From Sphaerolaimus hirsutus (taxonomy: Eukaryota; Nematoda; Chromadorea; Monhysterida; Sphaerolaimidae): a DNA stretch of 64,000 nucleotides. Numbering within the stretch: the first letter of the stretch is position 1; every line of letters starts with the position of its first letter. The notes under the pieces were generated by a model. It ran no database searches, was not told the DNA's origin, and worked only from the letters and a program-made list of their open reading frames with translations. Both the position numbers and the translations under genes were made by a program. Positions 2,403-58,921 of the stretch are shown piece after piece. The DNA lies in assembly GCA_964036195.1 (NCBI GenBank), contig OZ038457.1, forward strand, positions 4,808,635 to 4,872,634, written 5' to 3'.

Positions 2403-5400
2403 CCGCGCATCGACAACTACGAGCAAGAGATTGAAGAACGCAAAAACAAAGTGGAGCAAGTGCGCGTCAAACTGCACAGCGCCACCGATGAGATATTTGC
2501 TGACTTTTGCAATCGACTCGGCATTTCCAACATTCGGTGGGTTGGGGGGTAGACTGGAATATGTAGTCGTTTGGATTTTTTTGTGTATAGGCTTCAAACG
2601 ATATACAGTATCGAATATCGACAACTTTTTATATTGAATATCGATATCGAAATTTTCGATATAAAAATATCGAAGGTCCATATCGTATCGAATATCGAGT
2701 TTCAGAAAAAAATATCGAATATCGATATAGTTTGAATTGAACAGTTGGGGGACTCTTCCCAACGACAAACATCGTACTAATAAAATTACCCTAACAAGTG
2801 GTGGAAAGCGCCTGCATCAATGGCGCCTTTCCAACTCAATTTATCCCCCTTCCCACCAGCCTCTTGGGGGGGGGGGGGTGACGCCAAAACTACCCCACAG
2901 TCAACCAACCCCCTTCTCTCAATAACCCCCCCTCAGCGTGTACGAAGAACGGGAACTCCGAATGCACAACGAAACCAAGGAAAAACTAGCCGAGTTCAAC
3001 GCGTCGGTTGACCGGCTGACGCAACAGCACGCCTTCCTGCAGTCGGACGACCGGGAAGCGGCCGTGGTCAAGGCCCGGGCGGGGGTGACCAAACACGAGG
3101 CGGAGTTGGAGAGGTTGAGGGTTGCGGAGGCTAGGGAGTTGGAGGTGTGTATAGGGGGGGTTCAGGGGGGGTTGAGGGGTTTTGGTATTTTTGGGGGATT
3201 TTGCACGACTTTTCGATCAAAATCGCCGATTTTCATAGCTTTTTTTGCCCATTTTCACTTTCAGAATCACTGGTGCTTTATTGCCTAGTTTCAGCTTTTT
3301 TCCAGATCACGTGCTTTTCTCGCTTTTCTGCCTTGTACATACACCGTGAAACTGGGAAAATATGGTATTCGTTTTGTGGCGATTATGGCTGGTTTCAGAA
3401 AAACCGTTCACAAATTTCAGTCATAGCCGCTTTTTATAGTTTCAATTCTCCACAGGTCATGAAAAAGCACAAACAAGAAGTGGATACGCTCAAATCCGAA
3501 CTCAAAGAAAAGCAGGACAGCTTGGGAAAGCTCGAGGAGGAGTACGGCGACATCAAGAAGCGCGTGGCCGCCTTCGCCAAGGAAGTGAACGCGCTCGAGA
3601 AACAAGTGACCGCCTTCGAGACGGCCATCGAGCAGAAACGCAGGGAGAGGCATGGGATCTTGCATAATTGCAGGGTGGGTTTTTGTGGGGGTGGGGGGGG
3701 GGGGTGGTTCTGTGTGTAGTGTGATGTTTGATAGAGGGAAATGGAGTTCTGATGGAAATCCAGGGCATATCCTGATATGATGCGGATTGAAACGGGATCC
3801 CGATTCCGAATCCTGATATTTTTCGGGATTTGACGATCCTGACCCCGAAGCCCCAATCCCGATACCGGAAAATTGAATAGACCAATCCCGAACCCGAAAA
3901 TTTTCAAATCCCAATTTCGATCCCGATGCCAAAATTCGTAAACATTCCCAAATTTATCAAATGACTTCTTCCCACCGAAAAATCTTTACGGAAACCCCCC
4001 AGTACGCATTTTACCCCACCCAAAACCCTACCGCAAAAACCCCCTCCCGCAGCTGCACAGCGTGGCCCTCCCTTTGTCCAAGGGCACCCTAGACGCCCTA
4101 GTCGCCGACGAGGAGGAGCCGGGCTCGAGCAGCCAGGTGCCACTCCCAGACCCTGTAGAGAGCCCTGTAAAATGTCAAATGTCACGCAAAGTGTCAAAAG
4201 TCACGGAAAATGCAACTCGGTTGCCATTTCGCAGGGCATTTTCCATTACTTTTGACACTTTGCGTGACATTTTCCATCTTCCAGGGCTCTTTACATGTTC
4301 CGGGAGTGCCCCCAGACGCCCGGCGACGGCGCGACGGGTTCGCAACCGACGCGCGACAGCAGCCAGAGTCAGAGTCAGCGGTCGCAGAGCATGTTGGACG
4401 CGCAGGCAGGCATCAAGGTCAACTATAGGAAGCTGGAGGCTGAGTATAGGGATGTGAGTGGTGGGGGGGGGGGGGGTTGAGGGGATTGTACGGTGGGGGA
4501 TGGATGGTACTAGAGTTTACGGTACGGTAAACGGTGGTGTGTAAATGGTGGAAAGGGTTGAAAAAGACCGTTGTCTCGGTCTCGACGAAATGTCGAGACT
4601 TCCTGTGTCGATCGGAAAATATTAGTTGGTATTGGTGTCGAAAAATTGAAATCTCAGTCTCGTTCTCAAAAAGGCAGTCTCGTTTGAGCTCCAGGGGATA
4701 TAGCATTTACCAGTTCGGTGATTGTGAATTTGCGGGTAGCGATACGGTATTGTAAATTTTGAAAATTTACCGGTCTACCGGACGACACGAAGTGGGATAA
4801 TTTTTCCAACTCTACACTAATTATAACATTTCTGATCATTGCAGATTGAGACGGACGAGGAGGTTCGCAAGGCGATCGACAAGCTGTCCAAGTTGGTCAC
4901 CGAGAAGCAGTCCGCCTTGTCCAAGATCAACGCGCCCAACATGAAGGCGGGAGAGAAGTTAGCTCCGCCTTTCTGCGCGCTTTGACAAGTCTTTGAAAGT
5001 GACAAATGCCAAGTGACAGTGAGTCAAATGTCAAGTAAAATTATGAGTGAGTGCCTTCATTAAAAAATTTACTTACATAAAATATTTACTACAATTCTAC
5101 ACTTTACTTATAACTTTTTAAATAACTTTGTCACAATTTCACTTGCGGAATTTCAAATCAGATAAGAACCTCAATCGGCTTCTCAGATGTGGGCCCTCCA
5201 CTTTCTAATTAAATCCGGCCCCTGGATAGGGTTCAAACGGGATCCCGATCCCGGATCCCGTCAAATTCCGGGATTTAGCAGTCTCGATCCCGAAACTTTT
5301 CAAATCCCGATCCCGATCCCGAGAAACTCCAAAGTCCGGGATCCCGATCCCGGAAAAATTAGTGGTAATTATCAAACCTGAAAAAACGACGTTTTTGCAT

Positions 5401-15470: not shown

Positions 15471-15605
15471 GGTCCGCATGTAGCACTGGTCCGCATGTAG
15501 GCCCTCCCTGTCCGCATGTAAGTCTGGTCCGCATGTAGATGCATGCTACATGCAGACCGGGCTTACATGCGGACCGGACGGGCCTACATGTGTACCGGGT
15601 TTACC
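15471..15605. repeat. Palindrome built of TCCGCATGTA repeats
   Basis: Repeated GGTCCGCATGTAG units run to about 15540 and then appear inverted (CTACATGCAGACC, TTACATGCGGACC) to 15605. The result is a foldback of tandem 10-20-bp units just downstream of GALNT10. Confidence 0.6.
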
Positions 15606-16374
15606 TGCAGAATAGGCCTGAGCCGATGGTGTGGTCAGAAAATGGCCACCAGATATCCACAGTGTTGCAAGGGCCTGGGATGTCCAGAGGGTGATGACGT
15701 CCAGGGGTACATGCCTCAACCAGCATATGAATTGTGTCGTGCCAATGAAATTAAATCCCAGGTTCCTTTCATCCGGCCCACTGGTTTCAAAAGTGCCTTC
15801 TGCTGTGATTTTTGTGCGCGTTGTCTGCTCATTCTTGGGTTTATCTATTCACCCTCCTTTTGGGTTATGTGCATCCGAGGGTCGTTTGTTGTGTTATACA
15901 CTTTCATCGACGAATGTCTCGCTGCTGGCGTTTGGCACTGGTCGCGCCATTTTTATGTCGTTTTTCATAACTAGCCAAATGTTTCCCCTCTCGATTGCCA
16001 ACATCAAGACAATTCGTGGTGGGTATATTTGCGATTTTTTTGTGATTTTCAGAATTTCTTTGCTTTCTGACTACGGCGTAGCCGCGAGATGTTTTTTTTC
16101 GGCGAACGAAAACTATTTATTATGTATTTATTTATTTATTTGATGCGTTATGCGCAGTGGCAGTTCTGGAGGTTAAGCTTAATAGTACAAGAATTCTTCT
16201 TTTTATCGTTGGTTAAATTCTCCAATGACCAAAATTTTTTTTGGAAAATCTACTTTTAAGGCAATATAATTCGGATACTGCCGAGTTCCGATCTACGAAA
16301 ATTACATTTCTAAACGAATTTGATCATTTTTGCAGGATTTATTTTGGTCTTTGGTATTGTTTGTCTGCCCCCTC
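15606..16374. other. No gene recognised
   Basis: Two overlapping open frames of 143 and 170 codons start here (15543 and 15631), but neither shows a domain, a splice context or similarity I recognise. The stretch may include GALNT10 3' untranslated sequence. Confidence 0.4.
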
Positions 16375-18918: not shown

Positions 18919-20383
18919 AACACCTTCCCGATCAAGTCCGGCCCCCCATTTTTTATTTTACTTCTGACGTCCTATCTCCAGTTCTAGGACGCGCCAGAAG
19001 CTGAAACTTGGGGTAGATATTGGCGCAACCCCCCTCTACTTCGCATGAATTGGAGGGGTCGCGGCGACCCCCTACAGGGTGGGTGACCCTAAACGCAAAA
19101 AATTTCGTGGCTTTTAAGTGTCCCATACAGGTCCGGCCCCCACTGATTTCTTAAACTCCGGGTGCTGTACCTCCATCTGTGGGAGGGGTAAAAATCTACA
19201 ATTTTGGGGATGTGTCGCCAACACCCATCCCCTACTATACACTGGCCAGGCGGATTTTGGCAACTCACCACAGTGTGGGGTGCAGCATTCAAAATTTATC
19301 AAAACATTACTGTCCCACACAGGTCCAGCAGCCAATTGAATTTAAAAAAATAAACACTTTTGTGTTGTTTTAACACTAAAGTGATTGATAATGTCAAGTA
19401 AGCATTTAATATCCTCTATAAATATCTTATCCCACCAAAAACTGCCCACCACATGAACCAATCCCCTAAAGTGGCTGACAAAAAATCACTTTTTACAACT
19501 TTTTTATTAGACACTTGAACTGTTGGTTTACAATATTTTATAGAGGAGAGTTAAGGGTTTTAAGTTGTGTAAAAAACCTTAGCTCCAAAAAGCCCTCATA
19601 AGAAAATTTGCTTGGGGTAAATTTAAAATTGTAAATTTTACTTATTTTTGTTCATGCAATGATGTCATTTTTTCAATTCGAAATTCACCCCAAGCAAATT
19701 TTCTTATGAAGGCATTTTGGAGGTAAGGTTTTTTACACAACTTGAAACCTTGAACTCTTCCCTAAAAATTATTGTAAACCAGCAGTTCAAGTGTCTAATA
19801 AGAAAGTTGTAAAGAGTGATTTTTCATCAGCCACTGGAGGGATGGGTTCATGTGGTAGGCGGTTTTTGGCGGGATACAAGATTTATAGAGGATATTTAAT
19901 GCTTATTTGACATTATCAATCACTTTAGTGTTAAAACAACACAAAAGTGTTTATTTTTTTAATTCTATTGGCTGCTGGACCTGTGTGGGACAGTAATGTT
20001 TTGATAAATTTTGAATGCTGCACCCCACACTGGTGAGTTGCCAAAAACCGCCTGGCCAGTGTAAAGTAGGGGAGGGGTGGTGGCAACACATCCCCAAAAT
20101 TAAAGACTTATATCCGTCCCACAGCTGGAGGTACGGCACCCGCAGTGCAAGAAATCAGTGGGGCCGGACCTGTGTGGGACACTAAAAAAGCCACGAAAAT
20201 TTTTTGCACTTAGGGTGACCCACCCTGTAGGGGGTTGCCGCGACCCCTCCAATTCAAGCGAAGTAGAGGGGGGTTGCGCCAATATCTACCCCAAGTTTCA
20301 GCTTCTGGCATGTCCTAGAACTGGAGATAGGACGTCAGAAGTAAAATAAAAAATGAGGGGCCGGACTTGATCGGGAAGGTGTT
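18919..20383. mobile_element. 1,465-bp near-perfect palindromic transposon
   Basis: The first half (18919 to about 19650) is repeated as its reverse complement in the second half with only scattered differences. Checkpoints: AACACCTTCCCGATCAAGTC at the left end against GACTTGATCGGGAAGGTGTT at the right; CTACAGGGTGGGTGACC (19072) against GGTGACCCACCCTGTAG (20214); AACACTTTTGTGTTG near 19353 and its inverse near 19938. The target duplication is TA (18917-18918 and 20384-20385). No long ORF exists. It is a foldback or giant MITE. TA suggests a Tc1/mariner-like or related mobiliser. Confidence 0.85.
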
Positions 20384-23900: not shown

Positions 23901-24892
23901 TCCTTGACACTTGCCACTTGCGGAACTAGCACCAGTTCTGTTGCAGTGTGCGCGGTTTTTTGTGCGTGTCTGCGCTTACCGGTCGCATATTTTCTTATGT
24001 CACATGCGTAAATATGATTTGGACAATATATTTAGCTGTCTGATATTCATTTATATATGTCTGTATGTATTTATCGGTTATCGTGTATTTATAGAGAATC
24101 TATTTAATGTAAATATTATTTACGAGCATCGCAACAATTTTAGGTCGGAGGGGAATCAAATATGGACATCGAAAGTTATCACTGGTGAAAAGCGCCAGAA
24201 CTTTGGCGCCAAGCGCCATGGCGCTTTTACATCACTAGTCTGCTAAGAAACAATATTTTACCGTAGAAATCTTTCATTGGTTTGGTTGTTTTCTTGTCGC
24301 TTATCGGCCAGAAATAAATACGACATTTGGTATCAATATAATTTTATTTAGTTTGATCAGAATCAGATCGAATTCTGAGTGCATAGGCCCATCGATCGCA
24401 GTGACATCTGTGTTTGTGATTTTAATTTAGTTATGGATAAATGAATATTTTCATAGTCTTGACCACTTTCACCTTTTACATTTGCCGCTTTTTTTGCCAT
24501 ATTTTCTCGAAATACCCCCAGCCTTGGGGCCCCAGGGGGTTTCTATTTCGCCAGTTTCTTATTTCGCGGTGCCAATCTGACGTAAAGTGTAAAGTAAAGT
24601 GTCAAATTTCATGTAAACTATCCATCAAAACAAAAAAAAGAAGATATTATAACTGAAGTTTACATGACAATTGCTACTTTACATTTTTCATGACAATTGA
24701 CACTTTACATGACAATTGACATTTTACATGACATTTGAACCTAGGACTGCCCCAGGCATACACTAATCAGTTTCCGTCTCCAGTGTGGTGGTGGCCGTGA
24801 ATTCAGTGGTGTTTGTGAAGCCGGTGGCGTCGGTGCACGACGTGCTGGTGATGCAGCTGGAGCTGGCGCTGATTCCGCTGGTGGACAAGTGA
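20939..24892 (+). CDS. Unrecognised membrane-protein gene, 3' exons
   Basis: Four GC-rich segments stand out: about 20939-21102 or 21105, 21676-21849, 22224-22270 and 24784-24892 (stop TGA). The last three are bounded by ag/GT signals and join in frame (phases 0, 0, 2). They read VLYEWSGGATVALFVSAFTL, then a Cys/Arg-rich loop, LNRKKRYTKSK, and a final hydrophobic stretch ending ALIPLVDK. The first segment reads LYCIKDAKGEAFVPN and ends GPIPLKGK at its own TGA (21105). With a GTGATA donor at 21103 it would instead splice in frame to the second. So the locus is either one gene or two alternative 3' ends. A membrane helix is likely near ATVALFVSAFTLRLL. I do not recognise the family. Upstream exons were not found. 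Confidence 0.35.
21473..21575. repeat. Short inverted repeat GTCGCGCACCCT...AGGGTGCGCGAC
   Basis: A roughly 100-bp element with complementary ends AGTCGCGCACCCT and AGGGTGCGCGACT and internal GCATGCAAGTTTGTCAAATA. The interior resembles the TGTCAAATG motifs of the introner-related family. Compare 31409-31563 and 44640-44770. Confidence 0.5.
22890..23760. mobile_element. TATACTCC-family MITE copy 2, split by a nested element
   Basis: The ends (TATACTCTGCACTCTAAC at left; GCTGGAGTATA at right) and the arms GGAAGCGTGCCAATGATAAT and GGCGTGCTTCCAGCGGGAAC match the copies at 17737 and 45283. Removing the 622-bp insertion at 22997-23618 leaves about 240 bp, the normal length of the family. Confidence 0.75.
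22997..23618. mobile_element. hAT-like MITE TAGGGATGG...CCATCCCTA, nested
   Basis: Ends are TAGGGATGG and CCATCCCTA, with a perfect 8-bp duplication GTTGTGAA (22989-22996 and 23619-23626). Runs of AAAAAAGCGC occur near both ends. It inserted into the centre of an older TATACTCC-family element. Confidence 0.85.
24575..24740. repeat. Introner-related TGACATTTTACATGACA repeats
   Basis: Alternating AAAGTGTCAAATTTCATGTA and ACATGACAATTGACACTTT motifs, like the interior of the introner elements at 4137, 27763 and 31874. It ends about 40 bp before the exon at 24784 and does not form a complete intron. Confidence 0.5.
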
Positions 24893-25368: not shown

Positions 25369-25739
25369 TAATAAAAAAATTGAACTGAAATAAACTGATA
25401 AATACAATAGGTGAACGGATGAATTAATTGAGCAAATTTGAGCTTACCATAATTGATAATTTTTAATCTCATTGAAGCGTGACACCACATCAATTTAAAC
25501 TCAAATTCGTTTAAAGCTGGTGCCAGTTCCGCAAATTGAGAAGTGAGAAGTAAAATGGCAAAAGCGATGTAAAATGGCAAAAGTGAAGTGAGCTGAAATT
25601 GGAAAAAAAAACAGTAAAAATGAAAAAAAAATAAAAGGTACCTAACTTCTCTTCGCTCTTACCATTTCACGTCGCACTTGCTATTTTACTTCTCCACTTG
25701 CGGAACTGGCCACTAGCAAACTGGCAAACCCTCTGAAAA

Positions 25740-25970: not shown

Positions 25971-26149
25971 AAAACTTACTGTGTTTATTGGAAATATGCC
26001 CACCCCCTTGAATTAGCCCCTTTCCCTCAAAATACCCCCAGGTCTGAGCATCCACTCTGAAAAAATAAACCCTCTAAGTGGGTATTTCGAGGAAATACAG
26101 TATTTTCACTGTAATTTCATATAGTTGAGGAAATTTTGCACAAATAAGT

Positions 26150-26235
26150 TTGACATTTTACATGACTATTGACACTTTGCATGACATTTGACATTCTACA
26201 GGACATTTTACAGAATCTGGAACTGGAAGTGGCAA
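26150..26235. repeat. Introner-related fragment
   Basis: TTGACATTTTACATGAC, TTGACACTTTGCATGACAT and ACAGGACATTTTACAG lead into AATCTGGAACTGGAAGTGGC. This last piece resembles a decayed form of the GGTCTGGGAGTGC end of the introner elements. Confidence 0.45.
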
Positions 26236-26904
26236 CCGATTTACATTTACTTTTCCTCCCAAAAAAACAGTACTCACTTACTCGCATACTTTTTCAAAGT
26301 ACGCGCATACAGAAAACGTATTTCAAACAGGTTTTTTGGTAGGCTTTTTCAAGGCATAAATGAACAAAAGTGAGAGAAAAGCTTAAAATATGGACAAAAT
26401 ATCCGAAATAGCATAAAAATAGGCAAAAACACACAACTAGTGAATTTGATGGTGAAAACTTACAGAAAGTACTGATTTTGAGTGAAAATTTAGGCAAAAT
26501 TTCTCAAAAATACCCACTTTTATGTTTTCCAAGGACAAAAGTAATTTACTCATGAGTAAAGGCAAAAATTTAAATACTTAACGTTTTCTGTACACACATG
26601 TGAGTAAAAAATAAATTCTTTACGTTTACGTTTACTTTTGAAAAAGTTCGGTACTTTCAACAACTCTGCTTGCAACAACAACTCAATACCAATTTTTTTG
26701 ATGAAATGGTGTCTTGTTTTAGCAGAAGTAACTCAACCACTCAGCAAGAGTATGCTGGGTGCATTCCTCAATGGATCAGTCGGGTCCACCACGGACACCA
26801 TTTCAACGCTTTTTTGATGTTTTTCTTCTTTCAGACGCACCTCATATAAATTGTTTATCAAATTATCACATTTAATGTAAGAATGCGTTTTGTGACCTCG
26901 AATT

Positions 26905-27140: not shown

Positions 27141-29059
27141 CTGGTCGTCACGCTGCAACAGACAGCTGGCATGCTCATCTCGGAGACGGCCGCCTGCCGC
27201 CGGGCGTCCATGCGGCGCAGTTGGTGCTCGTGCGATTGCAGGAACTTGGTGGCGCAGTCCACGCTGCACAGCACGCTGGACGCGAAGGCGGCTAGACGGA
27301 CGAATTGACCTGGGGGATGGGGGTTGATTCGACTGTACAGGGTTGGGTTGATTTAACAAATACATAGTTGTTAAAACGTATTTACGTTTACTCGATGAAT
27401 ACGTATACTTGCGTACTGCGTAAATACGCCTACGCCTCCTCCCTCGAAATACCCCCTCAAAATCTTACTGTGAAAAAATAAAACCCCGGCGAGTATTTCG
27501 AGGAAATACGGTATACATCCTATTTATTTTATACCGTCCATCTAATGCTGGGGATTATACCAAAGGATTTATTTTTCCCACTCTGTATCACACGGATGTT
27601 TTTCGAGGGGGTGGGTGTCTATTAAGGAAATACGTAAGTGTTTCAAACCGAAACAACCCCCCGTGCTACTCGCATGCCTCACCCGGCTTCAAGGGCGCGC
27701 CGCACTGCCTGCACGGAGCGCACTGCGAGTGCTTGTACACGGTCTCACTCTGGCCCGCCAAACTGGGGGCACTCCCAGACCCTGTAAAATGTCAACTGTC
27801 ATGCAAAGTGTCAAAAGTCATTTAAAATGCCCACGTAACGTTGACACATATCTTGACATTTGACATTTTCCAGGGTCCGGAGTGGCACCTGGGCAGCTGG
27901 CTGGGCCGGTCGTAGACCACGCCCTCGTTGCTGGCGACCGGCCGCAGGCAGCGGTCGCACCGCGGCGCGAAGTACTCCAGCGTGCACGGGCGGCAGTATT
28001 GGCGCCCGTGCACGATGTACAGCTGGGGGGGGGGGGGGGTAAATGCGAATAATTGAGTGTGAGTTTGGGGGGGGGGGGCGGCCCACTGGGCTTTCGTGCC
28101 TACCCGTGCTTGTTTGTGTTGTATTTATTTCTTCGACTGGGGGACTTTATGAGGGAACAAAATGCTCATAACTTTTCAATTGGCGTTAGTCATATTTATC
28201 TGTGTCAGTGTGAAGTTGTAAGTTGTTCCTGGAGACAGTCAAGCACCCTGTGAAGTGCCCCATCGAAACTTTGTAGAAGCATTTTAGTTAATCTATCAGT
28301 AAACTGTCTACCAGGCATGGCTGCATTACACTCTACTTGTCGTTTGACAGAGAAGTCCATGTCCTTTACTAGCCACTTCACTAGAAATTTATCACTGAAC
28401 ATCCCTCCCCATTGCCTTTCTTCCCGCAAAACCGACCGGCTTCGGTTCGGCGGTGGTCCAGTCGGGCGACAGTTGAATCTGGCCGCCGCAGTGGTTGCAC
28501 TTGACGCACTGCACGTGCATCAGCCGCTCGCCCACCTGCCGCAGGGCGCCCGTGATCGGCTCGCCGCACGCCCAGCAGCCTCTGTTGGTGAATGTGACTT
28601 GGTTAGAATTGTGGAGGTTTGTTTGATTTATGGCGCTTGACGGGTTGTTTTTAATATTTAAAAAAACGCATTTTTATCTGCCGCTAAAAAACTCTCGTTT
28701 TCAACCTTATCCGCGTCGAAGCACACCGCGACAAGTGACGTGAAGGCACCGGACCTATGCTGGTGCGATGGCCCTACAATTTTCAGAGGATCCCTGCCTG
28801 TGCCGGTGCAATTTTTTTCAGAATAGCACCGGTGCCGGTGCTGTGCGGTGCCTTTTTTGCCGGTTCCAGGTGCCCTTTCTAAGGAATGGCAGGGGCGCCG
28901 GTGCCTTAAACATCACTAATCGCGACTGCAAGCTTCCCATGCCAACCTGCCGCAGCCATAGCGCCCTTTGTCCGCGCTGCCGCCGCCCGCCAGCGTGCCC
29001 GCCATGTTCAGCATGGACTGCGTGCACTCCAACGGCTTCTTGTCGCTGCTACTCGCCAT
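27141..29059 (-). CDS. Protein with two LIM domains, 5' exons
   Basis: LIM domains are double zinc fingers that bind protein partners in transcription, adhesion and cytoskeletal complexes. Exons on the minus strand: 28947-29059 (ATG at 29059), 28437-28581, 27889-28022, 27683-27762, 27141-27309. Phases close throughout. Residues 1-37 are Ser/Gly-rich. LIM1 ligands: C40, C43, H60, C63, C66, C69, C96, C99. LIM2 ligands: C108, C111, H142, C145, C148, C151, C172 and D175 or C176. After LIM2 comes a charged, probably helical stretch (SHEHQLRRMDARRQAAVSEM). Intron 3 (27763-27888) is an introner element, placed inside the LIM2 loop, which is longer than usual. The last exon ends in phase 2 and no following exon was found, so the C-terminus is missing or further left. 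I cannot assign the LIM family. The gene is head-to-head with the GST gene, 1,051 bp apart. Confidence 0.8.
27763..27888 (-). mobile_element. Introner: element forming intron 3 of the LIM gene
   Basis: On the minus strand the intron starts GTGCCACTCCGGACCCTGG right after ...CTGCCCAG and ends GGGTCTGGGAGTGCCCCCAG. It contains AATGTCAAATGTCAAGATA and ACTTTTGACACTTTGCATGA. At 126 bp it is the shortest of the three intron-forming copies. Its ends coincide exactly with both splice sites, and the exons on either side encode one continuous LIM2 domain. Confidence 0.8.
28735..28915. repeat. GGTGCC-rich repeat in LIM intron 1
   Basis: Variants of GCACCGGTGCCGGTGC and GGTGCCGGTTCCAGGTGCC between exons 1 and 2. 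It resembles the other hexamer-core elements, but ends and target duplication are not resolved. Confidence 0.45.
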
Positions 29060-30110: not shown

Positions 30111-32621
30111 ATGGGCGCCGTGTGCAGCGGCGGCCAGAGCTCCGGTGACCGGCTAGTGTTGAACCCGTTTCGCTTGTGCCGTCGCCGGCGCGGCGGCTCA
30201 TCGACGCGCCGCCGGCGGCGCAGCCGCAAACGTAGCAAGTCGTCGCGCCGGCGCAAGTCCACCGTGCAACGCAAAGGCAAGCAGTCGATGAGCGGCGCGG
30301 CCACCGAGCAGTCGGCAACGGGCGACGGCGGCCAGCTGCGAAATGGCGCCGCGGCGGCGGCCGACGGCGCGGAGAAGGCCGCGCAGGGTGACGCGGCAAC
30401 AGATGGTGATACACAGGCGGCCGCTCACGGGGAAGGTGATAAGGAGAATGGGGCCGCGCCGGCCGAGGTGAACGGCGAGCCGGAAACGCTGGCCGATGCG
30501 CAGATTGTGGTGGAAAGACCAGAGTGCGTTTGTAATCAAATCAACTGGGCTAAAATTAATGGTTTCAGGCTTGAGATAATTGTTAGCATACAGAGATGTT
30601 TCAAAGAGGCGATGAGTACCTAAGGAATATACCGTGCCCATTTAAGATACCAAATTCCTTGATATTACTGATTAATGAATACTTTCTCTATAAGCAAACT
30701 CTTCAACATAAATGTATGTTTGTGTCAAACGGAGACTAGAGCCTCACCCATCACATTCAAAAATATTTATGTTAAATAAGCCGCGCTGATTTGATGGATG
30801 TGGAATTCACTTCCTCATTACACTCTAAAAATGATGCAAACTTGCACAAATTTCAGGATTCGAATTGTGGACACCGCCTCTGCTCGCTTAGTGACCGAAC
30901 CTCTGAGGCTTATCTTAAACTACTGCAATTACACATACACTGAGGAAATCTTGAACAATGGCTAGTTATTAGCGTTTTAAGGTTGAAGTTTATTTCAAAT
31001 TATGCTGGCTAAATTATTTATTGAGCTTTGACTTTGAGCCAGCCAGTATGTTTTTACAGTTGGCAATTTTCCAACACAGAACAGTGGCAAGCAGTATCTG
31101 AGGAGCACAATGCCACAAATGCACCTATTATTCACGTTGGGAACAAAGTGGTCACTGATCCAATTTCGGTAGCTCGTTACGTTGTCCAGGAATTTGGTCG
31201 GTTCGATGATGGATGGGACTTGCTCTGCAAAATGACAAATGTCATGGAAAGTGTCAACAGTTATGTAAAATGTCCTGTAAAATTTAAACGACCAATAATT
31301 TTTTTGGACATTTTGCTGGTCAGTTTACATCACTTTTGACACTACTTGACATTTGCCATTTTTCAGGGCGTTTTATAGGATCTGGAAGTGGCAACTGAGG
31401 GCAGTCTCGCACACTGTAAAGTCTCGTGTCAAATGACAAATTTTTAATCAGTGTCAATAATTAAAAAAAAGTTTTATTACGGACTGTTTGACATTTTGCA
31501 TTATATTTTACATAGCATTTGACACTTGATTTGACACTTTACAGCACGCGGTGCGTGACCACCCCAGGGACCAAATAAAATAAGCCCAACATTTTTCTGA
31601 GTTTATTGCATTCCTCCAAATTGTCCCCACTTCAAAGTGAGCTAGAATTATCCACGCCCAAACGCTTTCTAGTAGTCACTGTATTATATCACATAAAATG
31701 AACCACGTTGACCAGGAAAAAGTGACTTTTTGTTGACAACGCATTTTTGTTTTACCCCACAGAGCCAAAACTGGCATCTGATGACCCATGGGACAATGCA
31801 AGAATTGACATGTTAATGGAAACTTATGTTGAACTGAGGACAGCAGCTTCACATGTCCTTGCCAGTGGTGCAGGTGCCAGTCCCAGACCCTGTAAAATGC
31901 CCTGTAAAATGTCAAATGTCATGCAATGTGTCAAAAGTCATGGAAAATGCCATGTAAAATGCCATTTTCATTGACTTTTGACACTTTGCAAGAGATTTGA
32001 CATTTTGCAGCGCATTTTACAGGGTCTGGGAGTGCTCCCAGATGATGAATGGAAGGCATTCAAGGGGGAGAAATTGAAGGAGACTTTGGATATGTTTTCA
32101 AACACGATATTGGAGTCTGGCCACGGCTGGCTTATTGGGCAAAGAGTGGGTGCCTTGATTTTACTAGCAAAATGCTGATAAAAACCTACTTATTGTTTTA
32201 CACTTGCTAGAGTGGTAGTTTATTGAACTTACTACACGTAAACTTGTAGTAAGTTCAATCAACTACTACACTAGTTATGCCCGACAAACGTGTCGGGCCA
32301 ATTTCATTTCGCCTCTGCTTCTTCACAAGCACTATTATAAATTTCAACCCCCCGCATAAAACTTTCCTTAGGCGGTGTCTCGATCGGCACTTTGCGGTAA
32401 AAATAGCCATGTTCCATCGTGTGCTCGTCCCCAAAAAAGCCTTTTCTCAGATCAGCTGGGCCGATCTAACCATTGGGGATTTCGTCGCCGCGCTGCGAAA
32501 CAGCCGCGACAGGGACTTGCTGCGGCCGTGGCCCAATTTGGAGACTTATGCGGCTACGGTCCGCAAAACGCCCAACTTGATTCACTACTTTTCTAAGAGG
32601 ACAATGCCTAAATGGACTTGA
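30111..32621 (+). CDS. Sigma-class GST-like protein with lipidation-type N-terminal extension
   Basis: Exons: 30111-30523, 30857-30964, 31060-31196, 31763-31873, 32042-32145, 32451-32621; 347 residues, all phases closing. Residues 1-137 are an extension. MGAVCS fits N-myristoylation (Gly2, Ser6) with Cys5 available for palmitoylation. An Arg/Lys/Ser-rich stretch (about 20-65) could bind acidic lipids, and an Ala/Gly/Glu-rich region follows. Fly GSTS1 also has an Ala-rich extension. Residues 138-220 are a thioredoxin-type domain (TEPLRLILNY, NAPIIHV with the cis-Pro, VARYV). Residues 220-347 are the helical domain (ESGHGWLIGQRISWADLTIG, RPWPNLETY). The catalytic Tyr of sigma GSTs aligns with Thr or Asp (near 143-145), and the glutathione-binding Gln-Ser aligns with Asp-Pro in TDPISVARYV. 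So it is probably not a normal glutathione transferase and may be a scaffold, as in S-crystallins. Intron 4 is an introner. The exon 2 donor (GTTATT) is weak. Confidence 0.88.
31228..31395. repeat. Introner-related element inside GST intron 3
   Basis: AAATGTCATGGAAAGTGTCA and TTTTGACACTACTTGACATT are arranged as inverted partners, ending in TTTATAGGATCTGGAAGTGG. It lies within the intron and is not coextensive with it. Confidence 0.5.
31409..31563. repeat. TGTCAAATG-type inverted repeat in GST intron 3
   Basis: It starts GCACACTGTAAAGTCTCG and ends TTTACAGCACGCGGTGCG, with GACATTTTGCATTATATTTT inside. It resembles 21473-21575 and 44640-44770. Confidence 0.45.
31874..32041 (+). mobile_element. 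Introner: element forming GST intron 4
   Basis: The 168-bp intron begins GTGCCAGTCCCAGACCCTGT directly after ...GGTGCAG and ends GGTCTGGGAGTGCTCCCAG. Inside are AAATGTCATGCAATGTGTCA and its inverted partner ACTTTTGACACTTTGCA. The exons join in phase 1 (GCA G / AT GAT) to give a continuous GST helical domain. It is the same family as the SMC1 and LIM introns. Confidence 0.8.
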
Positions 32622-33528: not shown

Positions 33529-33728
33529 NNNNNNNNNNNNNNNNNNNNNNNNNNNNNNNNNNNNNNNNNNNNNNNNNNNNNNNNNNNNNNNNNNNNNNNN
33601 NNNNNNNNNNNNNNNNNNNNNNNNNNNNNNNNNNNNNNNNNNNNNNNNNNNNNNNNNNNNNNNNNNNNNNNNNNNNNNNNNNNNNNNNNNNNNNNNNNNN
33701 NNNNNNNNNNNNNNNNNNNNNNNNNNNN
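33529..33728. other. Assembly gap (200 N)
   Basis: A run of exactly 200 N. The open frames crossing it are artefacts. Similar sequence (aatacatttttcgg, ctttttttcatcacgtt) stands just left of the gap and again near 34084-34125, so the gap lies in locally duplicated or transposon sequence. Confidence 0.98.
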
Positions 33729-37273: not shown

Positions 37274-37822
37274 TCACAGCTGCTCGAACACTGGATCGTG
37301 CCGCGCGGCGCCCAGCGGCGCGGCGGCGGCCTCCTGCGCGAACGTGTAGTCGTCGTCATCCTCGCCGCCGCTGGTGGTCGCGTCCACGGACGGCGTCATG
37401 GCCAGCCGGTCGAACTCTGCGTTCGCCTGGGCGCACGAGGTCGCCAGCAGCTCCACGGGCGCGTAGCAGTGCGGCGGCGCGCGCAGGTAGTCCGTGCCGA
37501 AGCCGCCCTCGCCGCCGCAGCCGGCCGCCGCCGGCGCCATGGGCGCGCTCAGGTCGAAGAACGAGTGGCCGAGCGACAGCGACGCCTCGGTCGACGAGTA
37601 GTACTGGGTGCCGACGCCCATGTGCGGCGAGTGGGCCGGCCCGCCCGCCAGGTGGTAGTCTGCGTGCTGCAGCAGCTGCGGCCGGTCGTCGCGCAGTCGG
37701 TCCACGCCGCGGCGGCGCGCGTTCATGAAGAAGTTGGCCACGGTGGTCAGGTCGAGGCCGAGCTGCGCCGCGATGGCCTGCTGCACGTCGCGCGACGGCC
37801 GCTTGGTCTCCTTGAAGATGGC
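37274..37822 (-). CDS. onecut: ONECUT alternative terminal exon B (second homeobox)
   Basis: This exon opens on the minus strand directly after ...CTCACAG at 37822 in phase 0 and runs 182 codons to a stop at 37274. It starts AIFKETKRPSRDVQQAIAAQ and contains the recognition helix [13 protein letters not shown] with the Phe48/Met50 pair typical of ONECUT homeodomains. The C-terminal tail is Gly/Ala-rich, with an acidic patch (GGEDDDDYTFAQ) and ends FEQL. It has no upstream cut-domain exons of its own. It can splice to the same donor (41293) as exon A, with identical phase and residue junction, so it looks like a mutually exclusive last exon giving a 659-residue isoform. It has diverged more from the consensus than exon A (GVDRLRDD in place of SLDKW). 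It could also be a retained but unused duplicate. Confidence 0.75.
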   Translation of the reverse strand, partial: AIFKETKRPSRDVQQAIAAQLGLDLTTVANFFMNARRRGVDRLRDDRPQLLQHADYHLAGGPAHSPHMGVGTQYYSSTEASLSLGHSFFDLSAPMAPAAAGCGGEGGFGTDYLRAPPHCYAPVELLATSCAQANAEFDRLAMTPSVDATTSGGEDDDDYTFAQEAAAAPLGAARHDPVFEQL

Positions 37823-39971
37823 CTGTGAGCGGGTGTCGCTGTGTTCACCCATGGGCATGAGCCGGTCGCCAGTTAAGTGACGCTCTTGACAATGCTGTCG
37901 ATTGAGAGCGCTGCGTGCAAAGCTACGGCTGCGAGTTGCGCCGATCTATTGACATGCACGGATACATTCACGAGTCGGCGATATCTACGCATGTGCATAC
38001 TTATTTTACTTTGTCCTCTCCAGAAAATCTCAAACGGTTGTCGCTGTGCTTTTTTAGACGTGAAATTTATCGCTCGTTTTTATTTCCATGCAAAACTCAT
38101 AGCTGAAAACCTCATCTACAAGTCACTGGCATTCTATACATAAACATGATGTGTTTCAATATGTATTTATTTCCGGGGCGGACCAAGTATACAAATATGT
38201 ATGTTCAACTCAAGAGTACTGCGCTCATGCATTGCGCTCCATGGATAAGGGACATATGGCACAAACAGCACTAGCCACATTCTACACAACTAGGTAAATA
38301 TATATATACCTAGTCTACTGAATGCATGAATTGCACTGAAAACTACCATATCCATGTGAATAGTGACTTAAAAGCTAGAATCCCCATTGGATTATTTAGG
38401 ATTTTTGTTGATCAAGATATGGTAACATTCTGCGCTAAGCATGCGATCAGCTCAGTATGTACATTCAAGTATATGTATGTATTTATGTATTTACATAAAT
38501 ACCAAAGTATAACACAAATTTTGGGTCACATTTTGCTCTCGCTTTACCACACGAAGAAAGTGATCGCAAATTGTTTCAGGCAATAATCCACCAGGACGAT
38601 GGTAAAATCTGCGAAAAGCTATTATAATTTTTATCTCTTTCAGAAATGAATTTCCTTGTCTAAATGGCAATTTTTACAAAAAAAATACCTATTTTTGATG
38701 TCAAACTGCAGATCAACATAAATATACCAGTTAAAATGGTGTCAGCCATAAGCAAAATACGACACAAAATTTCGTTTGAATCTAGATGCCACATGCGCGC
38801 TGCTGCAAATATACACAGCAAAAAATGGGTGTGTGGATGCGCGGTGAAGCGTCAGGAAGTGTCTTCACGCCGACGCTTCCCGACGCTTCACCAAACATGC
38901 CGGCGCTTCCACACACATCACGAAAATATGCGTGAAGGCACTTCACGCTTTCTTATATGGCGCTCCCATACACATGTATACGTACAGGAAGCGTGTGGAA
39001 GCGCCAGCGCCGTGAAGTGTCTTCCACATTTTGGATGCGCGTGAAGCGCGCGGTGAAGCTAGGTGAAGCGTGTGGAAGCTAGGTGAAGACACTTCACCAA
39101 GATTTTCGTGATGTTGGTGGAAGCGTGCGGAAGCGTGTGGAAGCGCGCCGCTTCACGCGCATCCAGGCCGCTTCCACACGCTTCACGGATCCATTTTCTG
39201 CTGTGATATGTATTTGGGTTTTGAAATTAGCAGATACGTTGGGAATGGCTGTCGCAATCTATCTATGACACGCTATACTTCCTCGAAATACAAAACGAGT
39301 TTAGCGGATAAAACCTGAATAAAAGAATTGCACTTGTATAGGAAACTTCGAAGGGCTCCCCATTTCGAACACGGGATCCATTGAGTGGATTTAAATAAAT
39401 AAAATCGGCTAAAAAGGCTGTGGTTACGTAAATACACGAGATTGGTGCCACAAATCGGTCATATAAATACAAAGTAAACGTAAGGTGACACGTGGAAAGC
39501 AGCACCAACAATACCTCATTAGGTGCCAATTCCACACCCTGTCACGTGGCGAGTAAGTAAAACGGGTAGATTCAAGAAAATGTTGTATATTGTATTGAAT
39601 GTAAAATGTCAACCATAAAATTTTGGACGTAGTAGTCGGGATTGCTGTATTAAATTGAATGTTTCTCTTCTGAAAAACATTGACATCATATTTTTACTTT
39701 TAAAATACCAATGTTTCACTTCAAAATACTTGCGAAATATTTGACAATATTGTAAAAAAAATCGTATTTTTTTGCCGTCCATTATATTTCATCCCAATAA
39801 TTTGTCAACCACGCGATCAGGGTGCGGAACCGGCCCCAACATCCCCCTAGGTAATCCCTCCCCAAATCTGAGACCTTCACTGATAAAAAACTCGTGACAC
39901 GCCCACAAGTGACTAGAGCGATCGTAGACTAACAGTTACTGTGGCCCAGCGCAAACCAGCATTTCAGGTGA
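37823..39971. other. Non-coding sequence between the two homeobox exons
   Basis: AT-rich, with the GAAGCG-array element at 38812-39207. If exon A uses a poly(A) site, its 3' UTR lies in the right part. No exons were recognised. Confidence 0.5.
38812..39207. mobile_element. GAAGCGTGTGG-array element, copy 2
   Basis: Ends ACACAGCAAAAAATGGGTGT and ATCCATTTTCTGCTGTG enclose tandem GGAAGCGTGTGGAAGCG-type units in both orientations. It lies between the two ONECUT homeobox exons. Same family as 25019-25368. Confidence 0.65.
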
Positions 39972-42900
39972 TCACAGCTTGGAAGAGACTGCCGCTTGCG
40001 GCTCGGCCGCCTGCCGCTTCGAGTGGTTGCGCAGACGCATCTTGTTCCCGCCTACCGGAAGTTTGGGCGCCGGCTCCGGTTCCGGTTCCGGTTCCGGTTG
40101 CGGCTCCGCTTCTGGCTGCGGAGACTCCGGCGCCGGCTGCGAGTCCTGCTGCGGAGACTCCGGCGGCGCGCTCACCGGCGCCGGCGCGGTCACGGTCACC
40201 GGCGGCGGGGGCGGCGCCACCGGCGGCAAGGGCGCGCCGCCGCCGCTGCAACCGACTGCGGCGGGCGCGCTGCACGTGTCGTCCACGTCGACCAGGTGGT
40301 CGGCCTCGTCCAGGCCGGCGTCGCTCAGCCCGTCCTCCTCCAGCTCGTACTTGAGCAGGACGCCGTCGTCGTCGACGTTCAGCTCGCCCACGTGCAGCTG
40401 GGCGGACGAGGCGACGCTGCTGGTGCCGCGCCGCTGCCGGCCGCCGCACTGCGCGCTGGTCGACGCGGCAGATTGGTCGGCGTCGCCGCTGAGCCACTTG
40501 TCGAGCGACCGGCGCCGGGCGTTCATGAAGAAGTTGGACACGGTGCCCTGGCTGAGGCCGAGCTGGTTGGCGATCGTCTGCTGCATCTCCTTGGATGGGC
40601 GCTTGGTCTCGCGGAAAATCGCCTGACCGAGGTGGATTTGGGTCGGTTTGTGCGTGGGCGCTGCACCGCGGCGACAATGGCGCCGCTGTGGCGCGAGCTT
40701 TGGGTGGTGTTCCGCAGTATAATGAAACCACTTTGTCGCAGCTGCACGGTGCCCCAGCGCCACAGCGGCGCCATTGTTGCGTTGCGTCACACTCGAACCT
40801 GTCTAAACATCTAACACAGCCTAGCCTTTAGCCTACCGGACATATTCGAATACTCCTGTTCGTTACCGCTCTAACTATGTTGAAAAAAGGTACTCGATAT
40901 TGATTTCGAATGACAACAGAAACGTCGGATAGCCAAACGCAATATAACGGGGCGAACTGAGGCTTCTGCAAGAACACACGCACACGTCAAAAGTTCTGTA
41001 GATTTATTTTGGCGTTTGCACGCAGGCCCAAATCCCTTTGAACGACGCACTGCATACTGGGGCAAAATTTGATTGGTTTGAGACGCGTTTTCGGCAGCAT
41101 TTTAACTGTATTTTTTGCAAATCTAAAAATGTATCTACGCTGCTATAACTATTCTCAACGTTGTTCCGATTGCCAGCAGCGCGGGCAATCGAAAAACAAT
41201 TGAATCGTGCAGTCTCCAATTTCTCCGCCAAAAATTCCACATCTCACCATTCAAAAATTCCACCCCAAATATTGCCAGAAATCCACACCTACCTGCAAGG
41301 TGCGCCGTTGCAAGTCGGTGAACACCAATCTAGGCTTTTTGGGCGCGCCGCCCACCGACCCGCCGTTGGTGCCGCCGACGCTGACGCAGGTCATGGCCGC
41401 CGTGGCGGCGATGCCGGGGTCGCCGAGGACGTAGCCGCCCGACACCGGCGGCACGTGCTGCTCTTCTTTGCGCTTGCATGCTGCGGGCGGTGGCGATTTG
41501 TTTTTCGTTTTGTTTGTTTTTTCGTTGTGAGAAGTTGGTTAATACTGGGCTTTTGTGAAGTGAATTCTGTGTTTGACGCTTTCAGTGACTGATTGCGGTG
41601 AAGTTGCTTTATTTCTATGATTATGATTATGATTATGATTTTTACAATCATATGTACCTAAATATGTAAAGTATGCATGTATTTATATGTAATACACGGT
41701 AATACCTACATCTATTCATCTACTAATTTTATAAATTGTTTCATCATTCCCGTCTCCCAACTTATCACATATCCACAATCAGCTTCTGGCACTCATCCAA
41801 GTTTCAGTTACCCCCTCATTACATAAATAGTTTTATCACGCGAGCTCAGCGACCGCGGCGCCGCGCCAAATTTCAAACTACAGTAATCACGTTGACAATT
41901 GGCTGGCAAGAGTGCAACCGCCAAAGTTGAGTGCTAATACGATTTTGTCACCGAAATAGTCGCGCCCATCGGGAAATTGTATTTTATTTGTCCACCGCGC
42001 ACTGATCTTTCGAAGTTTGTCGTCGCGAAATGCTATTATTTAGTTTGGTGCCGGGCTTAAATTCGATTGAAATCAGTCGCGGCGGCGCGGAAATGCCAGA
42101 GTTTCTGTTGCCGGCGAGACAAATCACATTTTCGCTCGGATTTACAATCTAATTTGCGGCCGCGTGCAATGTCATTGCAAATAGCTGTTGTAATTGTAAT
42201 CGTAATCGTTCTATGCTTCTTACGTTGCGTGACGTTCGGAAATTTTGAGACATTTTACGGCAAAGTTCTGGTTACTATGTTTATGTGTAATTGTGTAGTT
42301 GAAGAGAGTCCATGCCAAAAACAAAATTTTTAGAATTTAAATACTTTAAAATGAATTTTTTAATGTGTTTTTAGAAATAGGTTTTTCGAATCAAATTCTG
42401 AAACAATTTGGGTGAAAAATACTCTAAAGATTTTAGTTTTCCACAAGGTTTGCCTGAATTAGGTATAATACGCCGGTCACTAACCAATCTGTACGCGTGG
42501 TTCACTTTGGGTGTGTGCCCACGACAACTAATGCACGCAAATATACTAAAACAAAAAAAACGTTTGCTATTGCTAAGGCGTTCTAACAACAACGATTTTT
42601 TTGAGTTTGATGCCTTAATTAGGGGAGGGGTGTGTATTAAACTTCCCAACTACCATAATCCCCCAAATAACAAACCAGCCAATCTCAGTGCAGACATGCG
42701 TTGATACTCGGGTTCCTGCAACCACTTGTACATGCGCCTGAATGTCTCCCTGCCCGATTTGAGCTTGGACCAGGGCTTGGGGTTGCGCAGCAGATCGGAC
42801 AGGGTGCCCTGCGAACGGCACAGTACCCGCTGGGCGAAGATCGCCTGTGTGGGGGGGGGTGTGAAGTGTGTATTGATGAGAGGGCATAAGTGATGGAATG

Positions 42901-46153: not shown

Positions 46154-48590
46154 TTGTTTTTGTTGGGTATTGTTGTTGTTGTTTGTTTGTTTGTTTTGGG
46201 GGGGGGGGGGGTGCTTGGTTTTCTTATTACACCAGATAGTGCGGGAAAAGGTTTGAAAATGTGTAAAGTTTAGTCTGTCGATCGCGGCCTTTTCTGTATT
46301 TTTATACAATGTTTGATTTAAGCTTAAAATTATTCAGCACAGTCGTACGCTTAAGTTTGATGCAACCACTTTTCAAATTCGATAACAATCACCCAAAAAC
46401 TCTTAAATTCAGTTGACTAGGGTGTCAACAAATTTTTATTACGGAAAATGGAAACGGAAAAATATTTGCACTTGCCGGAAAACGGAACGGAAAACGGAAA
46501 AAAATTTGCCTGCGGAAAGCGGAAAACGGAAAGAATTTTGCCTGCAGAAAAGCGGAAACGGAAAATTTTTTGCACTTGCCGGAAAACTGAAACGGAAACG
46601 GAAAATTTTTTGCACTTGCCGGAAAACGGAACGGAAAACGGCAAAAAATTGCCTGCGGAAAGCGGAAACGGAAAACGGAAAACGTTAATTTGACACCCTA
46701 CAGTTGACCCCATAAAATCGCTGTAGAGACGATCCCACTCGATTTTATCCACAAATATTCACCCACAAACACACGCACACTCACTGACCATTATCCGAGT
46801 GCATGTTGTTGAACGCGTGCTGCGTCTGCATGGGCACGCCGTTGCCGGGGCTGGGCTGGGCGTTGCCCGCTGCCGCGGCGCACATGATGCCCGCGTGCCC
46901 GTTCGACAGCGGCAGGTCAGACGTCGCGTTAGACGTCGACTCCACTGGGGAGGGGGAGGGCTGCGAGGGGGTGGCGGGTGCGGTTTTTGTGCGAAAAAAC
47001 ATTCTGTGTTTTTGGTTTTGTAAAAGTGAATACCTATTTGTGTTTAGAGTTGTTTTGCAAGACATCACTGAAGCATTTTTACACTTGATTATTTCTTTGT
47101 TTTCAGTGAGAAAATCAAGTTTTTTTGCATAGAGTTGACACAGAAACACAGATTCAATGCAAAAGTATCAAAAATTTATTTTATGCATCTATACATCAAA
47201 CTAAATCCACAGCAAATAATTTGTGCTTCGAATTTTATGAAAAATACCCAAAAACATTTATTTATGTGTGTTCTGTGTTTCCATGTTCTCAAATAATTTT
47301 TGTAATTTATGTGTTTTTGAGTAAAACAAAAACACAGAAACGACATGATTTTCTGCACTTAAAATGTGAATTTTTGTCATCATTTGCTTGTTGAAGTTCT
47401 GCTGATTTTGTAACCAACGCGACGATTATGTCGGGCAGCCCGATTGCAGCCCAATCACACGCTGCCCTATTCAAATCGGCCCTTCCCAGCAACCCTTCTG
47501 CCACAAAAAAACCCACAATTCTGCCAACAAAAACACCTCCCAGTTGGCAAACAGCCAGCACACACCTGCGGCGCGGCCAGCAGAAACTTCTCATTGTGGG
47601 CCACCGAGGCAATAGGCGGCAGCGGCTGCAGCGCGGTCAGCGTCGCGTACGAGTGGTGCACGCCGCCGTTGCACTGCTGGTGGCCGCCGCCAGACGCGTT
47701 GTTCGGGCTCAGCGGCGCCGAACTGTCGCCCATGGACGGGTGCTCGCCATTGCCGAGCGATTCTGATGGGGTGGGGGGGGGGGGTTGAGTTGAGGTAGGT
47801 AGGTAAGCAGGTGCCTGTCCCAGAGCCTGTAAAATGTCAAATGTCACGCAAAGTGTCTAAAGTCATGTGAAATGCCATGCAAAATGGCAACCGAGTTGCC
47901 ATTTTGGAGGGCATTTTACATGACTACATTTACCTAGTATGCATATGCAAATATAGAATTCTTCGTCGTGTGAAGGATTCTTCAAGGATCCAGGGAAGTA
48001 AATTTCAATAGTCAGGGGATAAAGTGCGAGTATAACGACAGGAATTACAGTATAGCGACAAATTTAAAGTCAGAGAAACATTTATTCTTTTCATGTTTTA
48101 ACACATTTATTCAAAATTCATATTCATAACTCTATTTTTAGCAAACATTTATCAAGCTTTCAGTCGCGCCTAAATTGTTTATTAGAAGAAAATTCCCGAT
48201 TCCCGATTCCTTCAACCATTACTGACGATTCGGGAATCACAGTTTGCATACAGATTAAATACAGGGAAACGAATATTCCAAAAGCAGTTTACAAAGTCAC
48301 CGAAAACCGACCCAAAGCGAAGCCTCTATCGTCGATGTTGCCGAGCGGCGACTGTCGCGACAGGATGCCCTTGTGCCGGCCGCCCGCCGTCGAGTTGGCC
48401 ACCGACGACAGCAGCGGGTCGTTGCCTGCGAGCATGGGGCCGTCGCAGCGCGGGGCTCAGGGGACACTCACTGCGAGTGGCAGCGCCGCTCACCGGTGGT
48501 CGTGATGGGCGACACGGGGCAGCGGCCGTCGGCGCAGCTGACGATCACGCCGAGCGGCTGCCTGTGCTGCACCTCGGCCAGGCCCTCCAT
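39972..48590 (-). CDS. onecut: ONECUT (HNF6-type) cut-homeodomain transcription factor
   Basis: A nuclear DNA-binding regulator, in other animals important in neurons and endodermal organs. Exons on the minus strand: 48494-48590 (ATG 48590), 48312-48425, 47566-47762, 46789-46960, 45920-46068, 44442-44598, 43301-43488, 42676-42844, 41293-41480, then homeobox exon A 39972-40622. Total 693 residues; every phase closes. The N-terminal half contains [17 protein letters not shown], matching the conserved box of vertebrate HNF6. The cut domain (about residues 333-415) spans exons 7-8: [58 protein letters not shown]. The linker ends [17 protein letters not shown] and the homeodomain continues [20 protein letters not shown] with NFFMNARRR. 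The tail is acidic, then Pro/Glu-rich. Intron 6 has a GC donor (AAG/GCGAGT). Intron 1 is only 68 bp. An alternative last exon lies at 37274-37822. Confidence 0.93.
43676..44079. mobile_element. TCCTCGAATAAGACCCC inverted-repeat element in ONECUT intron 6
   Basis: It starts TACCCTAAATCCTCGAATAA and ends TTATTCGAGGATTTGCGGTA. Repeated GGGGGGAGTTATTC units lie inside both ends. It is a diverged member of the ACCGTATTTCC group. Confidence 0.6.
44640..44770. repeat. TGTCAAATG-type repeat in ONECUT intron 5
   Basis: It contains TTGAGTGTCAATCGAAATG, TTGCGTGACATTTTACAAAT and GACATTACACTTTACGGGG. Related to 21473-21575 and 31409-31563, and by interior motif to the introners. Confidence 0.45.
45283..45513. 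mobile_element. TATACTCC-family MITE, copy 3
   Basis: TATACTCCAGTCACTTTACA and CGCGTGGTTCCCGCTGGATG at left, with ATCATTGGCACGGTTCC and GAGGGCAGAGTAT at right. 231 bp, in ONECUT intron 5. Confidence 0.65.
46101..46190. repeat. TTG/CAA trinucleotide microsatellite
   Basis: A run of TTG units with a few interruptions. In the ONECUT direction it reads as polyglutamine and is open into exon 5. However, a good acceptor (CCCTGCAG at 46069-46076) lies between it and the conserved coding sequence, so it is most likely intronic. Confidence 0.85.
46418..46700. mobile_element. hAT-like MITE with CGGAAA hexamer core
   Basis: Ends TAGGGTGTCAA and TTGACACCCTA, bounded by a perfect 8-bp duplication CAGTTGAC (46410-46417 and 46701-46708). 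The core is tandem ACGGAAACGGAAAA with TTTGCACTTGCCGG. It lies in ONECUT intron 4. A truncated relative is at 2040-2263. Confidence 0.85.
47811..47924. mobile_element. Truncated introner-family copy in ONECUT intron 2
   Basis: GTGCCTGTCCCAGAGCCTGT is followed by AAATGTCAAATGTCACGCAA and GTGTCTAAAGTCATG. It ends at GGGCATTTTACATGAC without the second GGGAGTGC terminus. It is buried inside the intron and supplies neither splice site, unlike the copies at 4137, 27763 and 31874. Confidence 0.65.
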
Positions 48591-58803: not shown

Positions 58804-58921
58804 CCTGTGCCTACTGAGTGCTCTTGCGGCGCACCACTCGCGTTTTTGCGGAGGGAATTTATCACGCTACCGGTGCTGGCGCCGGTCTGTTTGCGCAGGG
58901 GTTCAGTTTTTGATCTTTTTA

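Follow-up and report, generated by a model that had tools for sequence, protein, structure and literature searches.

How introns originate has long been debated, and hardly any introners are known from animals. The 64-kb stretch of DNA analysed here (the window, C13:4808635-4872634 in the 348-Mb assembly that we searched) raises this question for a single intron of its SMC1 gene, at 4137-4315 on the plus strand: was this intron made by the insertion of a mobile element? From sequence comparison we consider that it probably was and that the element is a MITE, a non-autonomous DNA transposon, that makes introns, a reading to which we give a probability of about 0.9.

The SMC1 intron is 179 bp long, lies in phase 0 and reads GT...AG between its exons (CAG/GTGCCACTCCC ... 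GGGAGTGCCCCCAG/ACG, the slashes marking the junctions). The whole of it consists of one copy of the element, with ends GTGCCACTCCC...GGGAGTGCCCC, followed by a 3-bp CAG at 4313-4315 (plus strand) that is the right target-site duplicate and the source of the 3' AG; the left duplicate, also CAG, is the last codon of the upstream exon (4134-4136, plus strand). Aligned with its own reverse complement, the SMC1 element is 81% identical over 171 columns, and the intron folds at -98 kcal/mol as against -41.7 +/- 3.7 for 200 shuffles (z = -15). When the intron is removed, the upstream exon sequence (4053-4136, plus strand), whose peptide ends ...EEPGSSSQ at the junction, and the downstream exon sequence (4316-4453, plus strand) give a joined product that aligns with human SMC1A in a single frame on both sides (E 1.9e-21). 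The junction stretch itself is gapped and poorly conserved in this alignment, so that the SMC1 case shows the frame and not the exact edge.

Two further genes of the window carry the same element as a whole intron. One copy, 168 bp long and 79% identical to the SMC1 element, is found in a glutathione S-transferase-like gene (31874-32041, plus strand, CAG...CAG, phase 1), and the other, an internally shortened copy of 126 bp, in a LIM-domain-like gene (27763-27888, minus strand, CAG...CAG, phase 2). Both read CAG/GTGCCA...CCCAG/, and retention would place a stop codon inside the GST-like gene and stop codons inside the LIM-like gene. Both gene names come from Pfam matches that are weak and under the cut-off (GST_C_3, E 0.042; LIM, E 0.0077) and otherwise from our reading of the exons. 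In three genes of the window, introns thus resemble one another over the full length between their two splice sites, with sites inferred from protein conservation. The first-pass annotation had proposed that the SMC1 intron is an inverted-repeat element from end to end and that the same element forms whole introns in two unrelated genes nearby, and both proposals agree with these observations.

The remaining matches in the window are partial or, by eye, lie inside larger introns or between genes. They comprise a partial copy preceded by CAG, in which the left arm is joined by a portion of the right one (47811-47930, plus strand; judged by eye to fall in an intron of a gene on the minus strand), a degraded relative that is not a whole intron but lies within a larger one farther upstream in the GST-like gene (31214-31396, ends approximate), and a truncated, apparently non-coding relative (26148-26238, ends approximate).

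Other features of the window were recorded in passing. Long inverted repeats at 51912-52438, 19342-19962 and 62224-62864 (arms of 124-220 nt, 88-99% identical) and a shorter one at 15473-15611 (arms of 66 nt, 79%) are probably other hairpin elements, and those at 24582-24736, 25515-25700 and 31405-31560 are hairpin elements with different ends, some similar internal words and, by eye, no apparent coding function. The plus strand has 18 runs of at least 9 G and the minus strand 7; by eye, runs of at least 12 G at 3693, 4463, 28025 and 47773 sit just within introns, close to their splice sites. A minus-strand open frame of 1041 aa (55741-58866), with glutamine runs and a GHIDTGCN motif, is presumably the gag/protease region of a retroelement, and two neighbouring minus-strand ORFs (37274-37945 and 39972-40802), with ends FxETKRPS...NFFMNARRR, carry what we take to be Onecut-like homeodomain ends. 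The assembly has a gap of 200 N at 33529-33728. Scans of the window for Rfam families (at gathering thresholds) and for tRNAs returned no match.

Whether the copies are few or many, and whether a duplicate of fixed length flanks them, had been left by the first-pass annotation to a search of the genome. Thousands are present: the 26-base tip CAGGTGCCANTCCCAGACCCTGTAAA was found at 10,628 places (5348 + 5280) with no more than 2 mismatches, and the reversed-pattern control at none. An exact scan of the IMG/VR contigs, among which records of this genome are possibly absent, did not return the tip. We then collected the exact-ended copies, defined by 14-base ends with 148-178 bases between them (copy length 176-206 bp), and found 1258 with both duplicates in this length range, divided, left and right, into CAG/CAG (617), CTG/CTG (382), CTG/CAG (195) and CAG/CTG (64); controls for all four patterns gave 0. 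The flanking duplicate is 3 bp long and of the form CWG, and the two sides are identical in 999 of the 1258 copies, as compared with 644 expected if they were independent, the patterns having fixed C and G and tested W. Most of the loci that we fetched are flanked by CWG, with exceptions such as L003, L016 and L020, the last of which (C1:4396577-4396766) has CAT on both sides; another locus, L013 (C7:25512955-25513130), has GGGGC-type ends on both sides and is CAG/CAG.

A consensus of 65 copies (62 loci and the three of the window) spans 195 positions including both duplicates, and the median identity of the aligned copies to it is 92.7%. The complete element is about 189 bp long, with the terminal repeat GTGCCANTCCCAGACCCTG, and the corresponding intron of 192 bp is GTGCCANTCCC...GGGAGTGCCCC plus the duplicate. 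The preferred target is C-CWG-G: of the 62 loci, 38 have the preceding C and 39 the following G. A subfamily of about 198 bp (GTGCCAATCCCAAGCCCTGTAAAGTGTAAAG...) occurs in all four duplicate classes (e.g. C1:33349259-33349456).

The classes are not balanced. CAG/CAG exceeds CTG/CTG (617:382, p 1e-13), CTG/CAG exceeds CAG/CTG (195:64, p 1e-16), and exact 19-base tips are preceded by CAG at 2183 places and by CTG at 1900 (p 1e-5). Part of the mixed classes belongs to a subfamily with CCCAAGCCC after the tip, which by eye accounts for about 23 of the 100 CTG/CAG copies listed (195 in all) and for 16 of the 64 CAG/CTG copies. With this subfamily removed, 77 of the 100 listed CTG/CAG copies stand against 48 of the 64 CAG/CTG copies (p 0.012) or, projected to all 195, about 150 against 48.

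Direct evidence that the element makes introns comes from copies that interrupt conserved coding sequence, where the deletion of the element and one duplicate brings the protein back. Three of these copies are CAG/CAG: in MAPKAPK2 (L028) the joined flanks read ...TPYYVAP/EVLGPEKYDKS..., in CNOT1 (L009) they match across the junction with a 2-residue gap beside the site, and the third is the window's own SMC1 (L001), with SMC1A on both sides. In an FBXL-like protein (L039) the leucine-rich repeats match and the frame is open through the site, with the best Pfam stretch to one side. Two copies have CTG on the left and CAG on the right, namely those in an innexin (L025, ...QFTDA/WEQYTENYCW...) and in a CHGN gene (L086, joined flanks matching the family). 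The last four are CTG/CTG and lie in AMPK gamma (L090, ...VPASTKL/VVFDTQ...), OSCP1 (L078, ...MDKLYDL/MTMACKYQ...), a second CHGN gene (L087, joined flanks again matching the family) and attractin (L006, joined flanks matching across the junction). In AMPK gamma and MAPKAPK2 the alignment has no gap at the site, and every copy with a protein match to its flanks has GTGCC on the 5' side. Among distinct joined ORFs, a Pfam match across the junction and above the cut-off was obtained for 8 of 23 in sense and for 0 of 12 in antisense (Fisher p = 0.03); the selection of these ORFs relied in part on codon score and on inspection by eye, so it was not random.

Codon usage points imperfectly in the same direction. 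A codon-usage score called 21 of 74 loci sense-coding and 1 antisense and left 52 undecided, under cut-offs chosen once the scores were known; the 21 include the SMC1 copy of the window, whose exons trained the score, and the count without it is 20 v 1. With no cut-offs applied, 53 of the 74 loci score higher in sense and 15 in antisense, the latter including L039, whose leucine-rich-repeat protein reads in sense, together with L005 and L023, where the element may have inserted antisense to a gene. A gene-blind sample, made up of the exact CAG and CTG tips that come first on C1 (60 loci, 49 kept), gave 12 of 49 sense-coding, 1 antisense and 36 undecided. As a score over 90 bases per flank is too weak for single loci, and as the length of the ORF across joined CAG/CAG sites also discriminates weakly (medians of 105 aa in sense, 90 in antisense and 70.5 in shifted controls), whole ORFs and homology were used instead. 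Removal of the element irrespective of its orientation, by excision at the DNA level or by splicing guided by the hairpin alone, was considered when L005 and L020 appeared to be antisense-coding; we rate it low, because neither gave a Pfam hit and ten more antisense candidates gave none above the cut-off.

The proposal of the first-pass annotation that a mobile element makes introns is borne out by these unrelated interrupted genes, although a part of the copies is all that looks coding: 12 of 49 gene-blind copies were called sense-coding, and 36 gave no coding call, so the production of introns may be incidental for much of the family. If a quarter of the copies make introns, the exact-tip set would contain about a thousand, a rough figure taken from one end of one chromosome, and as a rough projection the genome would hold hundreds of introners or more. 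The notion that the element itself supplies the whole intron needs refinement, as the 3' AG comes from the target duplicate and not from the element, and several coding copies carry CTG, not CAG.

A forward insertion in a CAG target would leave the exons as before, the GT of the left tip serving as 5' splice site and the right CAG duplicate as 3' splice site, and removal of the element with one duplicate would return the conserved protein in frame. Another potential donor (CCT/GTAAAA), 18 bases into the tip, would add 6 residues in frame in either class, so the exact 5' splice site is not certain. In a CTG target the same insertion would yield an intron ending in TG, a weaker 3' site, which a T-to-A change in the right duplicate would sometimes improve, converting CTG...CTG into CTG...CAG; the innexin and first CHGN copies (L025 and L086) look like CTG insertions whose right duplicate has changed in this manner. 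The 195:64 and 617:382 skews are as predicted by selection for a 3' AG.

That CTG/CTG copies interrupt conserved exons of AMPK gamma, OSCP1, CHGN and attractin was unexpected. Coding copies with CTG in place of CAG are not plain GT-AG introns at the end of the element, implying either GT-TG introns or imperfect splicing. One account, to which we give slightly less than an even chance, is that the target duplicate is an evolving 3' splice site in a large animal introner family, in which a CAG insertion would produce an immediate GT-AG intron and a CTG insertion a GT-TG intron tolerated throughout the genome, later turned into GT-AG by the T-to-A change. The opposing account, which could well be right though we would not quite bet on it, is that TG is not the splice site of the CTG copies in conserved exons, which would be disabled or heterozygous alleles or else be spliced at inner GT or AG sites with added residues. 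In support of this account, PMC2374985 reports human TG acceptors only as alternative sites no more than 28 nt from an AG, and the present element has an AG (TTTACAG) 19 bases before its end. In two of the four homology-proven CTG/CTG copies, those of AMPK gamma (-18) and attractin (-21), changes in the length of a C run put this AG in the frame of the tip donor, so that canonical splicing with added residues is possible there. Pairing with inner GTs (e.g. +44 with -19) would likewise leave OSCP1 and CHGN in frame at the price of 63 extra bases, and the skew to CTG/CAG indicates that TG is not optimal. In favour of TG splicing, the AG at -19 is out of frame with the tip donor in OSCP1 and CHGN, which led us to reject its use by all CTG copies (2 of 4 out of frame), and the in-frame AGs between -80 and +60 (-45, +18, +24, +30 and +57 in OSCP1; +18 in CHGN) would add 15 residues or remove conserved ones. 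Moreover, the CTG/CTG copies stay in sense (8 v 1 antisense by codon score, 29 scored), which is unexpected for disabled insertions.

The excess of CAG over CTG could also stem from a transposase that prefers one orientation on the strand of the W, without any selection on splicing. The two tips of the element differ, which makes such a preference possible, and part of the asymmetry between duplicates could have this source; as the explanation of the excess we find it unlikely, since it accounts neither for the 195:64 skew among mixed duplicates nor for the sense bias in coding sequence. It is very improbable that a plain MITE landed inside older introns or beside splice sites and created no intron. 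Many copies lack coding flanks and some in the window do lie inside larger introns, as such an origin would have it, but the removal of exactly the element and one duplicate restores conserved proteins in several unrelated genes, and the CAG excess and the one-sided mixed duplicates would be unexpected. An RNA-based introner that multiplies through reverse splicing, the mechanism put forward for fungal families and for some of those in Micromonas, would give whole-intron copies in many genes but is hardly credible here, given that the terminal inverted repeats, the matching 3-bp duplicates (including 382 CTG/CTG) and the copies with no coding flanks fit DNA transposition.

The element that we regard as an intron-making MITE is short, has terminal inverted repeats and is flanked by a 3-bp target duplicate, the features of a MITE; it also forms a hairpin and exists in thousands of copies. 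NuwaI transposons are PIF/Harbinger-like. CWG is given as the target duplicate of NuwaI transposons of the PHIS superfamily in PMC4482050, which places them mainly in animals; they are described as DNA transposons with a DDE transposase, with no mention of introns. Membership of the NuwaI group would also call for a DDE transposase, together with a Myb-like protein, encoded between terminal repeats like those of the element. In this genome, PHIS-type DDE_Tnp_4 domains (PF13359) give at least 163 matches, and a PHIS transposase of the NuwaI kind would act in trans on the element. In the first 12 Mb of C1, by eye, no listed exact tip falls within 3 kb of any of the 4 PF13359 matches listed there. 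More than 100 of the PF13359 domains listed have near-equal scores and most of them contain 4 in-frame TGA (e.g. C13:4252575-4253207), which could reflect an unspliced intron or a common defect within them.

There is strong sequence evidence, then, for an introner family derived from a CWG-targeting, NuwaI-like MITE in an animal. A hairpin-forming jumping element, apparently spliced as a ready-made intron, offers a detailed route to new animal introns, in which the type of transposon, the target site and the source of each splice site can be read from the sequence, and the four duplicate classes are a natural experiment on the selection of a new 3' splice site. What appears new is the role of the target duplicate as 3' splice site, in AG and possibly TG versions with a visible route between them. 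In the literature on introners and intron gain we found no family with CWG duplicates, subscription papers being mostly outside this coverage and novelty hence unproven.

Introners from MITE-like elements are established, and the survey of Gozashti et al. 2022 (PMC9860276) reports them from only two animal groups, the copepods being the animals named among its carriers. A scan of the present genome for arthropod cuticle domains gave no match, but neither did any control genome, so a copepod becomes only slightly less likely as the source. Like the present family, the introners of the survey are non-autonomous, have inverted repeats, are flanked by target duplicates and make up entire introns, and those of Chrysochromulina described there likewise carry the 5' site in the element and take the 3' site from the duplicate. 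The Amoebophrya introner elements (PMC7789003) are similar in forming hairpin introns with inverted repeats and direct repeats of 3-5 nt over the exon-intron borders; by contrast, they belong to a dinoflagellate parasite, their borders are mostly non-canonical and variable in position, and they are described as lacking a family-specific inverted-repeat motif. GT-TG splice sites, for their part, are reported for the Micromonas introner classes IE-B and IE-D (PMC3879977), which differ in belonging to a green alga and in having 25 and 6 members, no CWG duplicate being mentioned in the description of these classes. Compared with the introners described by Gozashti et al. 2022 (PMC9860276), the family of the window is distinguished by its CWG target, its 3-bp duplicate and its use of AG and perhaps TG.
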